From positions 1-35,365 of IMG/VR virus record IMGVR_UViG_3300037042_002565: a stretch of 35,365 nucleotides of DNA; one strand, 5' to 3'. Each line of letters opens with the position of its first letter. Within the stretch, counting starts at the first letter, position 1. A program made the position numbers and the translations under genes. Positions 4,620-35,365 of this stretch are shown here, one piece after another. Source of the DNA: a virus. The notes beneath the pieces are model-generated. The model saw only the letters and a program-made list of their open reading frames with translations. It was not told the DNA's origin and did not search any database.

Positions 4620-5257
4620 TAAAAAGCCAAGCTAGGATATTAGCAAAAGAAAATGGAGAAAAATACTATTGTCCCGAAAACCCTTGCGCTAAAGGACATT
4701 TTTTACGTAATGTGACTCGCGGGGAATGTATAGAATGTAGAAAAATATCTAGTGTATTAGCTATTGAAAAAGATAGGCCCGCATACAATGCACGTAAAAA
4801 GAAAGAACGGCAACACAGGCTTCCACAAATAGCTGCTAGAGCAAAAGAAACCCGACTCATGGAATCTGATGCTGTTAAAACACTGCGTAGAGAAAAATCT
4901 AGGTTACGTTCAATTATATGGCGACAAAAAAATCCAGACCATGAAAATGCAAAGCTATGTAAAAAAATATATAGGATTAATAATCCCGCGGTATGCCAAG
5001 CCCTTGCTGTAAAACGTAGAGTTTCTAAAATTAACCGTACACCCGTATGGACAACCGAAACAGACATATGGATGATGAAAGAAATATATGAGTTATCCGA
5101 ACTACGCACACGCCTTACCGGTATTTCTTGGCATGTTGACCATATAATTCCTTTGCAAGGTGTTCGTGTTTCGGGTTTACATACACCCTATAATTTACAA
5201 GTAATTCCAGCAATGGAAAATATAAAAAAGGGTAATAAGTTTGAGGTACTAGCATGA
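4616..5257 (+). CDS. HNH homing-type endonuclease
   Basis: This 213-residue protein has two zinc-type Cys groups near the N-terminus (C19, C24, H28, C38, C41). A very basic helical middle (about 55-135) follows, then a C-terminal HNH nuclease domain (about 171-208): WHVDHIIPLQG with the catalytic D175-H176, then PYNLQVIPAMENIKKGNK with conserved Asn residues. This is the phage HNH/homing class, which nicks DNA near its own insertion site. The gene starts within the stop of the Gly-rich gene and ends within the start of the GNAT-like gene, both by ATGA. It is thus a clean insertion between virion genes. Its A-rich, Lys-rich composition differs from its neighbours, which fits mobility. Confidence 0.85.
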   Translation: MIKSQARILAKENGEKYYCPENPCAKGHFLRNVTRGECIECRKISSVLAIEKDRPAYNARKKKERQHRLPQIAARAKETRLMESDAVKTLRREKSRLRSIIWRQKNPDHENAKLCKKIYRINNPAVCQALAVKRRVSKINRTPVWTTETDIWMMKEIYELSELRTRLTGISWHVDHIIPLQGVRVSGLHTPYNLQVIPAMENIKKGNKFEVLA

Positions 5258-8797: not shown

Positions 8798-11700
8798 ATG
8801 AGTGAAGAAAACTATGAAAGATATATTCAAGAAGCTGCTAAAAGTAAAGGTGTTTCACCAGACCTTTTAAAATCGCTCATTGAACAAGAATCTAATTTTC
8901 GACAGTTTGATAAAAATGGGAACCCATTGACTCCGGGAACAAGTACGGCTCTAGGTCTAACTCAGATGATTCCTAGATGGAACCCTGAGTATGACCCTGC
9001 ATTATTGGCAAGTGACCCTGAATATAATATCCATGCAGGTGCGCACAAGTTACGAGGATTGATTGATAAGGCTAACCCTGCTCTTGATCAGGGGCAAAAA
9101 GAAATATGGGCGCTAGGTAAATACTACGGGAGTAAAGACCCGTATGAAAATAAAAACTACGCTAACTCTGTTATGGGTAAACGTGGGAAATACCTTGAGG
9201 ACGTAGCTGTTGGCCCACCATCTGACTTACCTAAAATTGAAGGGTTAACACCAGACGAAGTTGCTTGGTATCTGCAAGATAAAAAGGAACGAGACGCGCA
9301 AGCTGCCCAAGCAAAACCTGTCGAACAACAAGGTACATTTGGCGCAGCGTTGGGTCGAGGTATTGAGGGCGTAAAGCAATCTGGGCAAGGTGTTGTAACT
9401 GGTATTGAATCGCTGTTAGGTTACGATGAGGATGTTCAAAAAAGATTAGAGGAACAACACGCACAAGACAAACTGGTAGCCGAAGCTGAAGCTAAAGGGC
9501 CAAAGGCTACGTCCTTTCAAGAGATTGAAGATACGGCTAAGAATGACGGTGTGTGGGCGGCTCTTAAAAAGATTCCCGGCTATGTTGGCGAAAAGATTGT
9601 TGAATCAGCTCCAGCAACTGCTGGCCCGTTGGCTGCAGGTTTAGCTGCTGGCGCGGTTTTCCCACCTGCCGCTATTCCCGTAGGTATTGTTGCAGCCATT
9701 GTTCAAGAATTTGGATCAATGATTGATGAGCAAATGGATGCAGCAAAAACTGCGGGCGAGCTTGATCCAGAACGGACAATCTTACCTTCTATCGCTGCGG
9801 GTGCGCTCGATTCTATTGCAGACAGGTTTACCCTCGGTATGAAAATACCCGGTATGGGTAGGGCTGTTAAAGAGGCTGCTGAAAAAGAAATAAATAAAAC
9901 ATTTGGTGGGGAACTGTTAAAACATGCAGGTCGTGGTGTTGTTACAGAAGGCCCAACAGAAGGTATACAAAGAGAATTAGAACGTTACGCTGCAGGCAAA
10001 CCGTTAACAGGTGATGAAGCGTTTGCAGATGTTAAAGAATCTGTCGCTGGTGGCGCTGCCGCTGGTGGTGGCGCAGCGACTGTTATGGGCGCACCTCAAG
10101 CATATGTTGCCGCCTCTGATTCCAAACAAGCTCGTGAAGACTTGACCAATGAAGCAATAGCTGTTGCTGACGGTGATGTTGAGTTAGATGCTGAAAAGTT
10201 TAGAAACTATGGCCCTGCAATGGCTCGCGCGTTAGCTCAAAACAACGAGGGTATGAGTACACAAGATGCTTTTGAGCTATTACGAAGCAAGGTTGGTGTA
10301 AAGATAGAAGAAAAGTCGGATGAAGATTACGGACCAAGCACCATTCCATCCGTAGATACCGAACAAGCTACCGAAGCTGAAGCACCAATAACCGAAACTG
10401 AAACACCAGTAACCGAAGCTGAAACCGTTACACCCGAAGCTGAAACACCTGTAGAAACACCTGAAGCTAACGCACCAAGATATTCGGTAGCTCAAGATAG
10501 TGCGGCAATAAAAACTGCTCAAAAAAATAACACATACGCTGGTAAATCAGGATTCATGGAAGGTGTGTCACAACCTAAAGGTACGTCCAGTGATAAGTTG
10601 TTTTCTAACATGGATGAGGGCGGGTACGATTACGGTCATGGTTCCCCAGAAACCAAAGAGCGCATAAAAAAGATATTTAGAGAAAAAATGTTTATCCGTG
10701 CCGCTAAAAACATAGACACACCTGAAAGTAAATATCATGACGTGTCGATACAACCTTTTGTTAATGACACCAATATAAAAGTGGTTGCAGGCAAGCAAGG
10801 CGCGGCAATAGGACAAACATCTGTTGGTGTTTATAAAGGGGATGAGTTAGTCTCTGTTGCGCGTATTGAAGATGGTAAAATAGATTCTATTGGTACAAAA
10901 GACGATTATCGTGGGCAAGGTTTTGGCACTGAGTTGTTAAAATATCTTCGAGATAATAACATTGCTAATATTTATGAAGTTCCAGACAGATCTCCGGGAT
11001 TTACCGCGATACAAAAGAAAGTTATAGGGGAAGAACAAACTCAAGAAAAACCCACACAAGATGGTGTGACCCACGTAATTGCCCCATCTAGGGCAACCAC
11101 TCGTTACACAGCCGAACAGTTATCCCAAACACTAAGCCCCGAAATGAGGCGACTTGTCGAGTCGGGTAAGGCTGTTTTGCATGATACCCAAGCGACACTT
11201 CCCGGTGAGAATCACCCTGCGAATGTTCAAGGTATGACTACAGCCGATGGTGTTACTCACTACGTGGCTAACAAACTTACACCAGAATCCATGCAAAATG
11301 TGGCGCTACACGAAGTGGGCGTACATGCTGGCATGGAGAAAATGCTTGGTGCTAAGGTTTGGGAGGATGTTAAGAATCAAGCCATGACCAATCAAGGTAA
11401 AGAGTTTGATGCGGCTCGTGCGGCTGTTCCTAAAAACACACCTGCAAACTTACGTGCTGAAGAAGCACTTGCATACCTTGTTGAAAACAGTCGTCACTTA
11501 CCCTTAGTGCGTAGGATCATCGCAGCTATTCGTAACTTTATGCGTACCACTCTTGGTACAAACATCAAGCTTACAGAAGCCGATGCTCGGCAGTTGGCGG
11601 TTACGTCAATGCGTAGAGAGTCTAAAACATCAGAACGAACTGCTCGTAAGGAAACTGCGTTTAGCAAGGGAAAAGAATCTTCAAAATTAAAAATAAAACC

Positions 11701-14608
11701 TGTAGAAAAACTCACAACCGAACAACCTCGTTACTCAATAAAACAAACGTTTGAAGACGAACTCGGATCGTTTAAACAACAAGCGGACGGGGCAAGTGAT
11801 AAGGTTCTACCGTGGTTCTTAAATATATTTAGTGCGTCAGGTATTTATGAGCTTGGTGCAAAGTATCTAAAGGGCGGTAAAGCGGTATTAAAAGCTACCC
11901 GTGAGCTGTCGGGTATGCGCGACAAGATGTTAACCGAAATGGCTAACATGCGTAAGAATAGTTTTAACCCGTACATTAAGAAGAATCATAAGCAGTTAAA
12001 ACTTCTTGGTGATGTTCAATCTGAAACAACCTTGTTAGGTGTATCACCACGAGCAAAGGTTGGAGAAGAAGGTAACATCAATGACAAGATCACTAAGTTA
12101 GAAGCCGATAGACCAAAAGGTTTTGCTCAACTTATTCATCGTTTACAAGCATTGCAAATAAACTATGCAAAATTAAACCCTGAAGGTAAGCGTGTTTATG
12201 GTGAAATGGCTAAGTATTACAAAGATTCAATGGATAGGTATATTGAAGCCTACGAGCATAGTATAAAAACGTCCGGCATTAGTCCTGAGATTATAGCAAA
12301 GCAACTTGCAGTGTTTGGGGAACAAGTTAAAAACATTAAGGGTAAAGGTGATTACTTTCCTTTAATGCGTTTTGGCAAGTATGGTGTTGCGTATACTGAT
12401 GGGGATGTTGATTCTGAAACAGGTAAACTTATTAAAAAGTTTACTAAGTTTGACACATCGTCAGAGGCTAAAAAATTCTTAACTGATGTGAAAGTAAAGG
12501 GATATATTGTCCCCGACATAAAACAGTTCAATAAAGAAATAATTGGTGACAACAAATCAATGATGGATTTGTATGCGCAAATAGATAAATCTTTTGAGGG
12601 TACGCCTGAAGAGTCTATGGAAGGGTTGAAGGATTTTGTATTTCAGATGCATTTGATGGGTAAGTCTGATCAAAGTATTGGTAAGCAGTTTATTCATCGT
12701 AAAGGCACTGCAGGTTACTCTAATGATGTGTTCAGAGCGTTTGATAGCTATGCGATGAACATGTCAAGACAGCTACCTAGAATAAAGTTGGGTCGTAGTA
12801 TTAGCACGGGTTTATTAGATATTAAAAAGAACCTGCATGGTGAGATCATGCGAGGCACGTTTGAGGGTGATGTTGTAAAAGCAAATAGTTATTACGAAGC
12901 TTTTAACAGAGAAATTCTCGATGCGTTACACCCTAAGTTAACAGGCCCGATCTCTAACTTTGCAACAGGCGCTGCATTTAGCTATTATTTAACTTCACCA
13001 GCATCTGCGTTACTACAGTTATCTTCTATCGCATTGCAAGGTATACCGAGCATTGGTAAGACACACGGGTATGTGTTGGCTCACTCTGCTATGACTGCTG
13101 CAGCTAATTTATATGTTAGTAGTGGTATTGGCAAAGGTGTTGGGTTTTACAACATGGAGCGTGGGGCAAAAAAGTATAAGGATAAAAACAATGGCTATAA
13201 AAAGTTAATTGGTAATGCGACCCATGCTGATCAGTTTGACGTTGAGGCGGCTTGTCAAAGTTTTTTAAAAGAAGGTATCATAACAAGTGGTGTACATGCT
13301 GAAGCGTTTAGTGGTAAAGGTAGAACAACAGGTGCTCATGAGAACGTTATGCAAAAAGCGACAAACCTTATGGCTATCATGTCCCAACCTTTTGCTGAAA
13401 TGGAATCAGCATCGCGTCAAATTGTAGCCACGGCATCCTATATTGCCAACATGAAGTCAGGTATGACCCATGATCAAGCTGTAGAAAAAGCGATTGATTC
13501 TGTTTACTTAGACATGGGTGATTTTGGTTCTACAGGCAGGGCAACATTAACTAAAGGCGATATGGCTAGAGTGGTATGGCAGTTCCAACAATATGGGGCT
13601 AAATTATTATTCTCTATGGCTAAGTCTGCCCTGAACCTTGCCAGCAAAGATGGGCATGAGCGCAAAGAAGCTGTTAAACATTTGACAGGGATAATGGCAA
13701 TGCATTGGTTATTCGCAGGTGCGTTAGGTTTACCTGCGGCTGGTTTGATTGGTGGAGCAAACGATCTTATCAAAGACTTGTTAAGTGATGATGAGTGGCA
13801 TAACTATAAGGCTGATTTCAGATCGTACTTAGAGGCTAAAAATGTTGATGAGTCGTTTATTAATATTTTATTAGACGGCCCACTGTCAACAATACTCGAT
13901 CTTAAATTGTCACAAAGATTAGGCGCTCATGAAATCATACCAATGGTTCATGAGTCTGAAACACACGACACATTGGATGTGTCGGTAAAAGATAGATTGT
14001 TTGAAATGTTTGGCGGTGCGGCAGGGTCGTTGGTTGTCAATGTTTCGGACGGTTTAAAACTGTTTGCAAGTGGCGACACCGAGCGAGCTATTGAAAAACT
14101 TGTACCTAGTGCGCTAGTTAAGAACGTTATGATCGCAGGTAGGTTTGCCACAGAAGGTAAGATTAATGCCAAAGGTGATCAAGTTATCCCTAAAGAATCT
14201 TTCACACCTTTAGATATTGGCAAACAAGCGTTTGGCATTAGCCCATATAAAGTTATGCAAGGCGAAGAGATTGCACGTTCCGCTAAAACAGATGTTAGTT
14301 TTGCTGCAGATAAAAGAACCAAGTTGCTAGGGGAGTATCGTAAGATAGAAGATGTTGATGGGGACACTACTGAGATTGACAATAAAATAGATGCGTATAA
14401 TGACAAATACCCAGACACACCGATCCTTGCAAAGCATATAAGACAGTCTATAAAAACTGCCAATAGAGCTAAAGACAATTCAATATTTGGCTTCACGTTT
14501 GGTAAAGGTCGCGATGCAATGGAAGAAAAGTATGCGGGGATGATTAGAAATAAAGATTTTTATGAAAATCAAAACGAAGATGATTACGACTATGACAACA
14601 AAGATTAA
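8798..14608 (+). CDS. giant ejection/polyvalent protein with N-terminal lytic transglycosylase
   Basis: The protein has 1936 residues. Residues 1-130 form an SLT domain: LIEQESNFRQF with catalytic E31, then TALGLTQMIPRW, as in soluble lytic transglycosylases that open peptidoglycan during DNA entry. Residues 270-310 are hydrophobic and Ala/Gly/Pro-rich, a possible membrane-inserting segment. A Thr/Glu/Pro linker spans about 520-565. Around 690-720 is a GNAT-like acetyl-CoA loop (DDYRGQGFGTELLKYL). Around 838-845 is HEVGVHAG, with EALAYLVEN downstream, resembling metallopeptidase domains of phage polyvalent proteins. At about 1385-1430 is YYLTSPASALLQLSSIALQG, typical of a large-polyvalent-protein-associated domain. 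The C-terminus is very acidic. By position and domains it is the counterpart of T7 gp16. It is the last gene of the late operon and is followed by a terminator. Confidence 0.8.
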   Translation: MSEENYERYIQEAAKSKGVSPDLLKSLIEQESNFRQFDKNGNPLTPGTSTALGLTQMIPRWNPEYDPALLASDPEYNIHAGAHKLRGLIDKANPALDQGQKEIWALGKYYGSKDPYENKNYANSVMGKRGKYLEDVAVGPPSDLPKIEGLTPDEVAWYLQDKKERDAQAAQAKPVEQQGTFGAALGRGIEGVKQSGQGVVTGIESLLGYDEDVQKRLEEQHAQDKLVAEAEAKGPKATSFQEIEDTAKNDGVWAALKKIPGYVGEKIVESAPATAGPLAAGLAAGAVFPPAAIPVGIVAAIVQEFGSMIDEQMDAAKTAGELDPERTILPSIAAGALDSIADRFTLGMKIPGMGRAVKEAAEKEINKTFGGELLKHAGRGVVTEGPTEGIQRELERYAAGKPLTGDEAFADVKESVAGGAAAGGGAATVMGAPQAYVAASDSKQAREDLTNEAIAVADGDVELDAEKFRNYGPAMARALAQNNEGMSTQDAFELLRSKVGVKIEEKSDEDYGPSTIPSVDTEQATEAEAPITETETPVTEAETVTPEAETPVETPEANAPRYSVAQDSAAIKTAQKNNTYAGKSGFMEGVSQPKGTSSDKLFSNMDEGGYDYGHGSPETKERIKKIFREKMFIRAAKNIDTPESKYHDVSIQPFVNDTNIKVVAGKQGAAIGQTSVGVYKGDELVSVARIEDGKIDSIGTKDDYRGQGFGTELLKYLRDNNIANIYEVPDRSPGFTAIQKKVIGEEQTQEKPTQDGVTHVIAPSRATTRYTAEQLSQTLSPEMRRLVESGKAVLHDTQATLPGENHPANVQGMTTADGVTHYVANKLTPESMQNVALHEVGVHAGMEKMLGAKVWEDVKNQAMTNQGKEFDAARAAVPKNTPANLRAEEALAYLVENSRHLPLVRRIIAAIRNFMRTTLGTNIKLTEADARQLAVTSMRRESKTSERTARKETAFSKGKESSKLKIKPVEKLTTEQPRYSIKQTFEDELGSFKQQADGASDKVLPWFLNIFSASGIYELGAKYLKGGKAVLKATRELSGMRDKMLTEMANMRKNSFNPYIKKNHKQLKLLGDVQSETTLLGVSPRAKVGEEGNINDKITKLEADRPKGFAQLIHRLQALQINYAKLNPEGKRVYGEMAKYYKDSMDRYIEAYEHSIKTSGISPEIIAKQLAVFGEQVKNIKGKGDYFPLMRFGKYGVAYTDGDVDSETGKLIKKFTKFDTSSEAKKFLTDVKVKGYIVPDIKQFNKEIIGDNKSMMDLYAQIDKSFEGTPEESMEGLKDFVFQMHLMGKSDQSIGKQFIHRKGTAGYSNDVFRAFDSYAMNMSRQLPRIKLGRSISTGLLDIKKNLHGEIMRGTFEGDVVKANSYYEAFNREILDALHPKLTGPISNFATGAAFSYYLTSPASALLQLSSIALQGIPSIGKTHGYVLAHSAMTAAANLYVSSGIGKGVGFYNMERGAKKYKDKNNGYKKLIGNATHADQFDVEAACQSFLKEGIITSGVHAEAFSGKGRTTGAHENVMQKATNLMAIMSQPFAEMESASRQIVATASYIANMKSGMTHDQAVEKAIDSVYLDMGDFGSTGRATLTKGDMARVVWQFQQYGAKLLFSMAKSALNLASKDGHERKEAVKHLTGIMAMHWLFAGALGLPAAGLIGGANDLIKDLLSDDEWHNYKADFRSYLEAKNVDESFINILLDGPLSTILDLKLSQRLGAHEIIPMVHESETHDTLDVSVKDRLFEMFGGAAGSLVVNVSDGLKLFASGDTERAIEKLVPSALVKNVMIAGRFATEGKINAKGDQVIPKESFTPLDIGKQAFGISPYKVMQGEEIARSAKTDVSFAADKRTKLLGEYRKIEDVDGDTTEIDNKIDAYNDKYPDTPILAKHIRQSIKTANRAKDNSIFGFTFGKGRDAMEEKYAGMIRNKDFYENQNEDDYDYDNKD

Positions 14609-14645: not shown

Positions 14646-14834
14646 TTACCATGCATTATCGTCTGAAAAATCATCATCGTCATCAAGTTCAGATTCATCA
14701 CAGGTATAGCGTGTGAACTGTAGGAAAAACCATGTGAACTGCCAACCGTTGTCGCCAGTTTCAATCCAAGGCACCAAAGACCAATCCGCGATATGTCTAA
14801 AACCAAACTCATTAATAGTAACCATGTTGCTCAT
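14646..14834 (-). CDS. small acidic protein downstream of thyX
   Basis: This 62-residue protein is not recognised. It is rich in aromatic residues (7 Trp: IADWSLVPWIETGDNGWQFTW and the C-terminal NAW) and ends in a run of acidic residues (DDDDDFSDDN). The first half, NEFGFRHIADWSL, looks like a short folded domain and the tail may be disordered. Its ATG shares a base with the stop of thyX (TAATG at 14832-14836), so translation is coupled. It is the last gene of the leftward operon, next to the terminator. No function is proposed. Confidence 0.7.
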   Translation of the reverse strand: MSNMVTINEFGFRHIADWSLVPWIETGDNGWQFTWFFLQFTRYTCDESELDDDDDFSDDNAW

Positions 14835-15412
14835 TATACTTCTCCAAAAATTTCAGGGGCTATTTCAGTTAGTTGTCTTTCAATTTCTAAAAATAAGTTA
14901 CGTATTTCCCATTGAGCAGCCTTCGCTGTTCGGTTTCTAATAACGTCACGCCACCCTTGAAAGTTTAAACATAGGTTTAAACTTGTTGTACATGATTGTG
15001 GGAAGATATAACGAGCATCTTCTTTCTTCATGCCATTTTCAATAGCTTCTTTGTATAGTTGCGTACCTGCAGATAAGTACTTGTACCACTCGTCTTGAAA
15101 ATATAATGGTGTATCTAGTAATGCCGGTGGAATAATATGCTGCACATTTGTCTGCTCAACATAACGCTGTGATTCTTGCAAGATACCTGCGTGCGCCATA
15201 CGGACTAATTGGTGCGAACAGATACGACTAATGCCTTGCACGTTTATTGTAGCGTAGGCAAAGCGTAAGGTCATTAAATGCCCCTTATCTTTGCAGTGCC
15301 TTGCTCTTTTTATATTGCTTTCAGGATCGGTCTTAGCGTCATAACAAATTGAGGCCATTTGTCCAATCTTTTGAACAGGGTCTGCAGTGTGGTCAAGAAT
15401 AGTTACTTTCAT
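14834..15412 (-). CDS. thyX: flavin-dependent thymidylate synthase ThyX
   Basis: The protein has 192 residues, short for the family (usually about 210-250). ThyX makes dTMP from dUMP using FAD, NADPH and methylene-tetrahydrofolate. Visible signatures are GHLMTLRFAYATINVQGISR (residues 44-63), the signature block HQLVRMAHAGILQESQRYV (67-85, with S81, R83 and Y84 of the S-x-R-Y end), and the C-terminal RNRTAKAAQWEIRNL (159-173) with the usual R-x(n)-AQWEIR. The canonical RHR triplet reads R71-M72-A73 instead. Phages use ThyX to support DNA synthesis, and here it accompanies a full replication set. It lies in an operon of very small genes, with a 2-base gap to the 37-residue ORF upstream. Confidence 0.9.
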   Translation of the reverse strand: MKVTILDHTADPVQKIGQMASICYDAKTDPESNIKRARHCKDKGHLMTLRFAYATINVQGISRICSHQLVRMAHAGILQESQRYVEQTNVQHIIPPALLDTPLYFQDEWYKYLSAGTQLYKEAIENGMKKEDARYIFPQSCTTSLNLCLNFQGWRDVIRNRTAKAAQWEIRNLFLEIERQLTEIAPEIFGEV

Positions 15413-26780: not shown

Positions 26781-27187
26781 TTTAGTTTCCTTTTTTCTTG
26801 TATCAACCTGTGTAATGTTAATTGGAGTAGCTTAAGTTCTATCAGTTCGTGTGGGACTGATTCTCTTATTTGTGTATTTGATATTTTAAAAGTCAATGCC
26901 ATATTGGAAACGACAAGAGCAGTAGGATGCGCCGCACGGTATTTTTTTTTATGAGTAGCGCTCTTTTCAGGATTATTAGTGCGCCATTTTGCACAATTCA
27001 ACTTTCGCTTTTCAGGATTATTAGTGTGCCATTTTGCACAACTCAACTTTTGCTTTTCAGGATTATTAGTGCGCCATTTTGCACAACTCAACTTTTGCTT
27101 CTCTTTCTTAGTCTGCTCTAACGTCAATAATGTTTCTATCTCTAGCTGTAGTCTTTCTCGCAATATTGTTAAGTCTGGAATGTTCAT
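26777..27187 (-). CDS. 136-aa KWRxNNPEK-repeat protein (fusion of two neighbouring genes)
   Basis: Residues 1-20 (MNIPDLTILRERLQLEIETL) equal the start of the gene at 27470-27688. From LTLEQTKKEK onward the protein follows the gene at 27184-27498: a block of 15-residue basic repeats (three copies of K-L-(S/N)-C-A-K-W-(R/H)-T-N-N-P-E-K), AAHPTALVVSNMALTFKIS and the shared end LIQEKRKLK. The repeat type occurs as a spacer in HNH endonucleases, but no nuclease motif is present. The structure shows a tandem duplication followed by a deletion that fused the two reading frames. ATGA overlaps lie at both ends. Confidence 0.7.
   Translation of the reverse strand: MNIPDLTILRERLQLEIETLLTLEQTKKEKQKLSCAKWRTNNPEKQKLSCAKWHTNNPEKRKLNCAKWRTNNPEKSATHKKKYRAAHPTALVVSNMALTFKISNTQIRESVPHELIELKLLQLTLHRLIQEKRKLK
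26966..27100 (-). repeat. 45-bp coding tandem repeat, three copies
   Basis: Units at 26966-27010, 27011-27055 and 27056-27100 differ at only a few bases. Each encodes one K-x-K-L-x-C-A-K-W-x-T-N-N-P-E block. A related pair of 45-bp units (27373-27417 and 27418-27462) lies in the paralogous gene. Confidence 0.9.
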
Positions 27188-31197: not shown

Positions 31198-31520
31198 AGC
31201 CAGTACGCAATGTACCCAAAGTACGCAATGTAGTACGCAATAAAAAAACATTGCGTACTGGTCTAAACTATTGATTTATATCTCTTTATACTCTTTTAGT
31301 ACTCAATACTCAATAATATAGATAAATTAGTATATAGAAAATATATTTATAAAATATATAAATATATATAAAAAGAAATTTCCTATAGAGCTAATACAAA
31401 ATTGTGTTTTATTGCGTACCAGACCTGCCAAAACACCCCTCTAGCCCACGGCTGGCGCGGGTTGTCGTCAGTACTCAATGGTTTTGCTCATTGCGTACTT
31501 TGAGTACTTTTTAATTATTT
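31198..31520. other. putative replication origin: iteron-like repeats and AT-rich region
   Basis: The 348-base gap after the primase-helicase is noncoding. It holds direct copies of AGTACGCAATG (31202-31212, 31220-31230, and 31232-31241 minus one base) and the inverse CATTGCGTACT at 31249-31259 and 31489-31499. There is a partial inverse copy at 31411-31419 and variants AGTACTCAAT(G) at 31298-31307 and 31470-31480. Between them lies an A/T-only-like stretch (about 31311-31383). Repeats beside an easily melted region next to a primase-helicase gene are the classic origin arrangement. Function is inferred. Confidence 0.65.
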
Positions 31521-34104: not shown

Positions 34105-34779
34105 TTAAGCCGTTAGTCCAATAGCAACCTTGGCCTTCTTCTTACCAGTACCATGGACTCTAAAGCCTATTATGTAATCGCGTTTAGCTATCTGACATAA
34201 GCCACATGATAAGCATGTGACTTTCTCGCTAGTTTGAGCGGGACAAACAACAACTTTATTATTGTTAGGCGTGTATGTAACCTTGCTTGCATTTTCAGGT
34301 AGTATAACGACCGTGGGCACACCCAACGCCATATAATTATCCGCTTGCTCTAACGTATTAGCCGATCCATTAACGGTAAATCCGTCATTGTTAGCTTGCT
34401 GAACAGCTGTTATATTGATAGCAGTATCTAGTGGATAGTGCGTATAAGTGAAACCATTCTTACCCACATTAGCTTGAACAAGCTCTTTTAACGCGTTAAC
34501 GTCAATGTGATTATTAGAACCGCGCAAATCACCCGCCACGTTGTGTCGCCACAGTGTTCTCTTGGGTAATACCTTAACATTGGCAATAAATCCCAGCCAG
34601 TCAGTGCCACGTTCTCCGCTTGTGACTTTATTCCAGTGTAGCTGAGTGTAATAATCCTCAGCGTAACAGCCGTTACGCTTTAAAGGGCAAGCGTCAGGGC
34701 ACGTCGCTCTATTACTTGTAGTAACAGGGATTGGCCCTGTTTTGCTATTCTTGCTGATCTTTGTTAGAGAATAATTCAT
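34105..34779 (-). CDS. DUF7227-like Cys-rich phage/plasmid protein
   Basis: The protein has 224 residues. The start ISKNSKTGPIPVTTSNRATC then PDACPLKRNGCYAE (C27, C31, C38) is the signature of a family common on phages and plasmids ('K-x-G-P-(I/M)-P-V...T-C-P-x-x-C-P-(L/F)...C-Y-A'). Further on, RTLWRHNVAGDLRG (GDL block) and a second Cys cluster VVCPAQTSEKVTCLSCGLCQ complete the pattern. The reaction is unknown; the clustered Cys suggest a metal or iron-sulfur site. The ATG overlaps the upstream 65-residue gene (ATGA). Both are expected to be transcribed from the promoter at 35023-35051. Confidence 0.78.
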   Translation of the reverse strand: MNYSLTKISKNSKTGPIPVTTSNRATCPDACPLKRNGCYAEDYYTQLHWNKVTSGERGTDWLGFIANVKVLPKRTLWRHNVAGDLRGSNNHIDVNALKELVQANVGKNGFTYTHYPLDTAINITAVQQANNDGFTVNGSANTLEQADNYMALGVPTVVILPENASKVTYTPNNNKVVVCPAQTSEKVTCLSCGLCQIAKRDYIIGFRVHGTGKKKAKVAIGLTA

Positions 34780-34973
34780 AACGAACCGCCTTTAATATCT
34801 AAAATACCATTATCAAAAGTTCCAAAATAAAAACCTTTACGCATTACTGTATAACGCGCGTTTTGCAATTTGGACAACTTCTGACCCCATTCGAGAGCAG
34901 ATCTGGTTTTGTTAAACCATGCACTGTTACCAGTGGCTTCACTTATTACTTGATACTTTCTATCTGTAATCAT
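34776..34973 (-). CDS. 65-aa protein cotranscribed with the DUF7227-like gene
   Basis: MITDRKYQVISEATGNSAWF continues NKTRSALEWGQKLSKLQNAR and ends in a beta hairpin (GFYFGTFDNGILDI). It is a compact alpha/beta protein like many small plasmid and phage proteins. Its ATG follows a leader of about 40 bases that includes a hairpin. The stop overlaps the next start (ATGA). No family named. Confidence 0.6.
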   Translation of the reverse strand: MITDRKYQVISEATGNSAWFNKTRSALEWGQKLSKLQNARYTVMRKGFYFGTFDNGILDIKGGSL

Positions 34974-34994
34974 TGCCTTAGACCCCTAATAAGT

Positions 34995-35013
34995 GTTAAG
35001 CGGATTGCTTAAC
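34995..35013. promoter_or_regulatory. 7-bp dyad downstream of the promoter
   Basis: GTTAAGC and GCTTAAC flank a 5-base spacer. The dyad sits about 4-22 bases after the expected start of the promoter at 35023-35051, so it may be an operator or leader hairpin. Confidence 0.5.
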
Positions 35014-35022
35014 TTAGATAGG

Positions 35023-35051
35023 ATTATACAGACTAATTGTTTAGCTGTATA
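35023..35051 (-). promoter_or_regulatory. sigma70-like promoter for the DUF7227-like operon
   Basis: TATACA (35046-35051) and a perfect TATAAT (35023-35028) on the minus strand are 17 bases apart, with a start near 35016. It lies directly in front of the genes at 34973-34105. Confidence 0.65.
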
Positions 35052-35112
35052 CAACAAAGATTAAATTTAATTTAAAAGGCTAAAATCCAGGTGATTTCAT
35101 AATCCCTATATA

Positions 35113-35219
35113 AATCAATAACTTAAATATCGCACCTAAACAACGATAACGTGTTAAGCAATACAAACCATTAGCTAAAGTATTATTGTTCAGTGAGCGC
35201 GATATCTAAGTTATTGATT
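35113..35219. repeat. large imperfect inverted repeat
   Basis: The 21 bases at 35113-35133 are the reverse complement of 35199-35219 with a single mismatch, and weaker pairing continues inward. The 65-base spacer has no gene. The flanking stretch 34974-35252 (279 bases) shows no open frame with a ribosome site. The dyad could be a protein-binding or replication site, or a mobile-element end. Confidence 0.75.
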
Positions 35220-35252
35220 CATAAGGCATTATTGATATCGGCAAGCATTGCG

Positions 35253-35365
35253 GCTCAATGCTCAATGCTCAATGCTCAATGCTCAATGCTCAATGCTCAA
35301 TGCTCAATGCTCAATGCTCAATGCTCAATGCTCAATGCTCAATGCTCAATGCTCAATGCTCAATG
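35253..35365. repeat. perfect heptamer tandem array (GCTCAAT), truncated by the window end
   Basis: Sixteen exact copies of GCTCAAT plus one base run to the end of the sequence. The plus strand has no stop in any frame (it would encode AQCSMLN over and over), while the minus strand has TGA in every frame. There is no ribosome site, so it is treated as noncoding. The true length is unknown. Confidence 0.95.

Follow-up and report, generated by a model that had tools for sequence, protein, structure and literature searches.

The virus record analysed here in its entirety (35,365 nt; hereafter the window) ends within a run of the heptamer GCTCAAT, which raises the question of what kind of element this run is and why the record stops there. 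The run occupies positions 35253-35365 (+ strand), a length of 113 nt made up of 16 copies and a final G (100% match), and is interrupted by nothing other than the record end; the unbroken array of at least 16 perfect copies described in an earlier reading, made from the sequence only, was confirmed. The heptamer occurs 21 times in the window, compared with a mean of 5.5 in dinucleotide shuffles, none of which reaches 21. A structured array is not favoured, because the array folds worse than its own shuffles (z = +2.7). Rfam gave no match for the array and only sub-threshold matches otherwise, one of which, over the neighbouring inverted repeat, is to a eukaryotic microRNA model, and no tRNA was found. 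Among 50,697 phage records, no near DNA match was found for positions 10000-34900 of the window.

The two sides of the array

The array lies in a non-coding intergenic region (34974-35365 in the window, with its right part on another contig, L009) between leftward early genes and a rightward packaging operon. The first leftward gene adjoining this region is a 65-aa ORF without family match (34776-34973, - strand), and the next encodes a DUF7227 protein (PF23872; 34105-34779, - strand), which in relatives marks the left side of the locus by synteny. At the other end of the window, the C-terminal end of a tail protein (1-114, + strand) is truncated by the record start. This shows that the record is incomplete at each end; sequence upstream of its start is carried by contig L185, which is 98% identical to the window in the next gene.

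When 2.9 million viral contigs were searched for three copies of the GCTCAAT unit, two contigs from other samples proved to open with this array: L009 (14.9 kb; array at 1-125) and L017 (4.1 kb; array at 1-122). Past the array, the two are identical into TTAACCTATGG and continue with about 390 nt of non-coding DNA, the gene for a 176-aa protein and the large terminase gene (TerL; phrog_38, E-value = 7e-102), and L009 extends past TerL to the portal and the major head protein. The 176-aa protein, which has no convincing family match, is called small terminase-like by position only. In G006 (53.8 kb), a single contig contains, in this order, the counterparts of the window at 16-34.8 kb, of L009 at 0.7-14 kb and of the window at 0.1-2.9 kb. 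From this order and the shared array, the right end of the window and the left end of L009 are two sides of one locus, which, judging from the gene order, is the gap between the leftward DUF7227 (early) operon and the rightward packaging operon. L009 is likely to represent this very virus, by a join based on synteny and the shared array rather than on a spanning read, and tetranucleotide similarity did not separate it from other clade members as the partner of the window. If L009 is the other side, the real array would be at least 125 nt long.

The window, L009 and L017 all end inside the GCTCAAT array, and the window ends where assembly failed, the array having split the genome in two. At contig ends the arrays are perfect, and inside contigs the long ones contain variants, a difference that is expected if the assembler is stopped by perfect arrays exceeding the read or k-mer length. 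Since short reads cannot resolve a perfect array of more than about 100-160 nt, the genome was probably split here, with the window leading up to the array and L009-like sequence coming after it.

Several other features of the two genome halves were recorded. A 1936-aa protein (window 8798-14605) matches a DarB-like antirestriction family (phrog_10089) in its C-terminal part, a ThyX-type thymidylate synthase (PF02511) is encoded at 14834-15412, and a 45-nt unit is repeated 3.1 times (95%) inside an ORF region at 26963-27100. Apparently HNH-type endonuclease genes at window 5017-5245 and L009:14562-14790 are related (78% DNA identity over 229 nt); genes of this type occupy differing places in the two halves, and further copies exist in G006, G010 and G011.

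Both flanks of the array contain non-coding elements that are kept in relatives. A nested inverted repeat of 115 nt (35109-35223), located 29 nt left of the array, has outer arms of 17 nt (consensus TATAAATCAATAACTTA / TAAGTTATTGATTTATA) and inner arms of about 7 nt. Its sequence is kept in relatives with a constant spacing of 98-99 nt (L031:4933, L034:4952, L035:1783, L036:1926, L037:225, L038:1376, L045:5125 and L048:650). It folds far better than shuffles (single-strand DNA folding z = -3.7), and looks like a recognition element or a structured leader. In L045 and L048 the array is on the opposite side of this repeat, and in the relatives with 11-mer units a palindrome abuts the array, with letters changing on both arms. 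To the right of the array, a C-rich stretch, then TTACATACTATT, and then AT-rich imperfect repeats are common to the relatives. The conserved C-rich/TTACATACTATT block (L009:207-230 and counterparts) lies upstream of the late operon, variants of the TTACATACTATT motif were traced down to about 60% TerL identity, and the block is a candidate for a packaging or late-promoter site. Of the 44 contigs whose first base is no more than 1.5 kb upstream of TerL, three begin within about 10 nt of TTACATACTATT, which is suggestive of a physical end there, with too few cases for proof.

A locus of changing repeats in relatives

Relatives were gathered by a TerL search (73-97% identical TerL). In about two dozen of them, a tandem array is found at a nearly constant place, just upstream of the C-rich/TTACATACTATT block, its right edge being about 0.85-1.07 kb short of the beginning of TerL. 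The sequence-only reading had proposed a comparison of related genomes, with relatives lacking any repeat here as the outcome that would count against it; the array instead recurs.

The units range in length from 2 to 27 nt. GCTCAAT is found in the window, L009 and L017; L027 has TCTATGC (equivalent to GCTCTAT, one base different from GCTCAAT), L298 has GCTCAAC, L041, L042 and L299 have TCACAGGC, L048 has GCTATCA, and L343 has ATCTGCT. The other units are a 10-mer (L321), an 11-mer family (L322, L324-L331, L334 and L338), a 14-mer (L045), 15-mers (L029 and L293), 18-mers (L335 and L342), a 27-mer (L032) and the dinucleotide TG (L333). The triplet core GCT is present in 15 of the 23 units, versus 3.8 in shuffled units; shared descent is the simpler reason for this, and a weak sequence constraint is possible. 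No array was found at the site in L031, L034-L037, L043, L044, L316-L319, L323 and others, in all of which the interval is sequenced. The array is not indispensable, because a good number of relatives do without one. In the nearest isolates by TerL (about 50% identity), gene order around TerL differs and we could not find an array in the stretches fetched. In L027, L028, G015, L048 and L293, the match to TerL is split into two parts with a gap between them, as an insertion (homing endonuclease or intron) would produce.

A second array site exists just past the terminator-like hairpin that ends the DUF7227 operon, with 21-31 copies of GAGCCA in G006 and G011 and a 13-mer array of 412 nt in L310; the phenomenon is therefore not bound to one exact spot. 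Imperfect arrays, such as that of L310 and one of 253 nt in L328, lie inside the contigs of relatives.

The arrays differ even between nearly identical genomes. L041 and L298 have 100% identical TerL proteins (97.2% at the DNA level) and right flanks that are 98% identical, and their arrays are composed of TCACAGGC and GCTCAAC, respectively. In addition, a perfect TATCTG array of 17.5 copies adjoins the GCTCAAC array in L298 (8247-8351), where L041 is near single-copy, in what is apparently the birth of an array de novo. L029 and L032 are 99.6% identical in TerL and 97% in the flanks, and their units (15-mer and 27-mer) are unrelated. At the second site, 21.5 copies are present in G011 and 19.5 in L299, to which it is closely related. 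Since the flanks and TerL are near-identical while the arrays are replaced, the array changes much faster than its surroundings. Two properties by which a variable-number tandem repeat (VNTR) or minisatellite is recognized are found here, namely near-identical short units arranged head-to-tail and a unit or copy number that differs between close relatives (L041/L298, L029/L032 and G011/L299).

In 635 kb of sequence from sixteen clade contigs, scanned for arrays of at least four copies with at least 85% match, all arrays with a period that is not a multiple of three lie within about 3.1 kb upstream of TerL, and those elsewhere have codon-multiple periods inside long ORFs, that is, they are protein repeats. 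This localisation is based on period and position, as the ORF mask was mechanical and placed some non-codon arrays in spurious frames.

Nature of the locus and competing explanations

From the position, synteny, turnover and localisation observed, the array in the window is probably one allele of a hypervariable tandem-repeat locus whose position is conserved across a clade of uncultivated tailed phages. Its parts, in order, are the inverted repeat, the array, the C-rich/TTACATACTATT block, the small terminase-like gene, TerL and the portal. We infer that arrays would arise from short flanking words and then grow, become homogenised and be replaced, most likely through replication slippage or out-of-register annealing of resected DNA. 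Resection and annealing are plausible in a phage that has genes for an exonuclease (phrog_69 / DUF2800), an Enc34-type single-strand binding protein, a DNA polymerase and also a primase-helicase. Any role would depend on repetitive, easily rearranged or spacer-like DNA, not on the heptamer, and would act beside the putative late promoter or packaging site.

Whether such a locus has any role is itself in question, and we give somewhat less than an even chance to its being a neutral minisatellite, a slippage hotspot without function that is perhaps due to polymerase stalling at the neighbouring inverted repeat. The wholesale turnover of units, the variation in presence and copy number, the non-coding position and the palindrome abutting the array in the 11-mer group are all as expected from this. 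However, the same genomes have other long non-coding gaps that are free of such arrays (the 0.35-kb origin region of the window is one), and the distance of the array from TerL, which hardly changes although TerL itself diverges by 25%, suggests that some cause or constraint acts locally.

It is possible, but rather unlikely, that the array marks a concatemer junction or physical genome end, like the short repeats of phage T7, and helps end duplication or packaging whatever its exact sequence. Such an element would be well placed here, since the array adjoins the terminase operon and an inverted repeat and precedes a non-coding block of deep conservation. In its favour are also the contig starts at TTACATACTATT and the T7 precedent, in which CCTAAAG is repeated about every 13 nt beside the terminal repeat. 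On the other hand, contigs L031, L041, L045 and L298 run straight through the site, the TTACATACTATT motif could be a late promoter or leader, and many relatives lack the array. A related idea, in our estimation improbable, is that of a telomere-like, sequence-independent tract beside a packaging terminus, continually regenerated by active end-processing, so that its presence and position would be selected while its unit is free to vary.

Kinship with the origin was proposed in the sequence-only reading, which considered the array akin to the origin repeats and both sites to be recognized by one protein, on the strength of the one-base likeness between GCTCAAT and ACTCAAT. Neither proposal is supported. 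The origin-like region (31203-31498) is built of AGTACGCAAT, with six exact copies in both orientations plus AGTACTCAAT variants, and ACTCAAT is simply the tail of AGTACTCAAT, itself a variant of AGTACGCAAT. The tandem ACTCAAT pair is indeed at 31301-31314, but the third copy occupies 31473-31479 and is thus shifted by a single base against the coordinates first given (31472-31478). Six copies of ACTCAAT in the whole window, against 5.5 expected, are no more than chance, and for this reason the likeness carries no weight by itself. No AGTACGCAAT cluster was found in G006, G010, G011, G015 and G019-G022, though all eight have arrays. Moreover, the unit is replaced wholesale between genomes with identical terminases, and the array therefore cannot serve one origin protein as a conserved recognition site. 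Among the window proteins scanned against Pfam, a set that includes small ORFs without assignment, no partition gene was found. With a unit that neither matches the origin repeats nor is conserved in relatives, a second iteron cluster, or a partition or copy-control site read by the origin protein, is very improbable.

An assembly artefact, with the array absent from the virus, is suggested by the position of the array at the end of a contig, a place at which repeats can make assemblers loop, and is hardly credible: as an account of the existence of the array it is refuted by the same array heading two contigs of other samples (L009 and L017) with matching flanks, and by the imperfect arrays inside the contigs of relatives.

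Comparison with known repeat systems

In a literature search, we could not find a description of a repeat locus beside the terminase. The hypervariable locus explains why short-read assemblies of this group of uncultivated phages are broken at one common point, and it warns that such arrays should not be read as binding sites from one genome. It also provides a natural series of repeat alleles in near-identical phages, in which the birth and replacement of minisatellites beside a DNA-packaging operon can be followed.

Of the systems compared, VNTRs and minisatellites share with this locus the perfect short units, the changes in copy number, the homogenised variants and the non-coding position. 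In contrast to them, the arrays here are confined, clade-wide, to one or two spots by the terminase operon, and the unit is replaced de novo at the same spot; this restriction and the whole-unit replacement are unusual for a variable tandem repeat. Iterons are likewise directly repeated short words, but here there is no conserved unit and no kinship with the AGTACGCAAT cluster, which is 4 kb away. The repeats bound by small terminases (phage lambda cosB and SPP1 pac) are close to terminase genes, as is the array, but they have a specific sequence that is conserved. At the present locus, the candidates that show conservation are the C-rich/TTACATACTATT block and the AT-rich repeats that follow it; the array does not.

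The closest known parallel would be the terminal short repeats of T7 and T3, by analogy and with a terminus that is putative here. In both systems, repeats with a heptamer core occupy non-coding DNA next to the packaging terminus of a phage with a short tail. The T7 repeats, named SRL/SRR, have a role in packaging, and their CCTAAAG core was read directly in the T7 and T3 sequences. However, the T7 copies are imperfect and spaced by about 13 nt, whereas those here are contiguous and near perfect. CCTAAAG is common to T7 and T3, whereas no repeat core is conserved among the relatives studied here and even genomes that are nearly identical have had the unit replaced. Given that T3 has the same core as T7 and that close relatives here do not share the present unit, there is no justification for classing the array as a T7-type element, although the neighbourhood in which it works may be similar to that of the T7 repeats.
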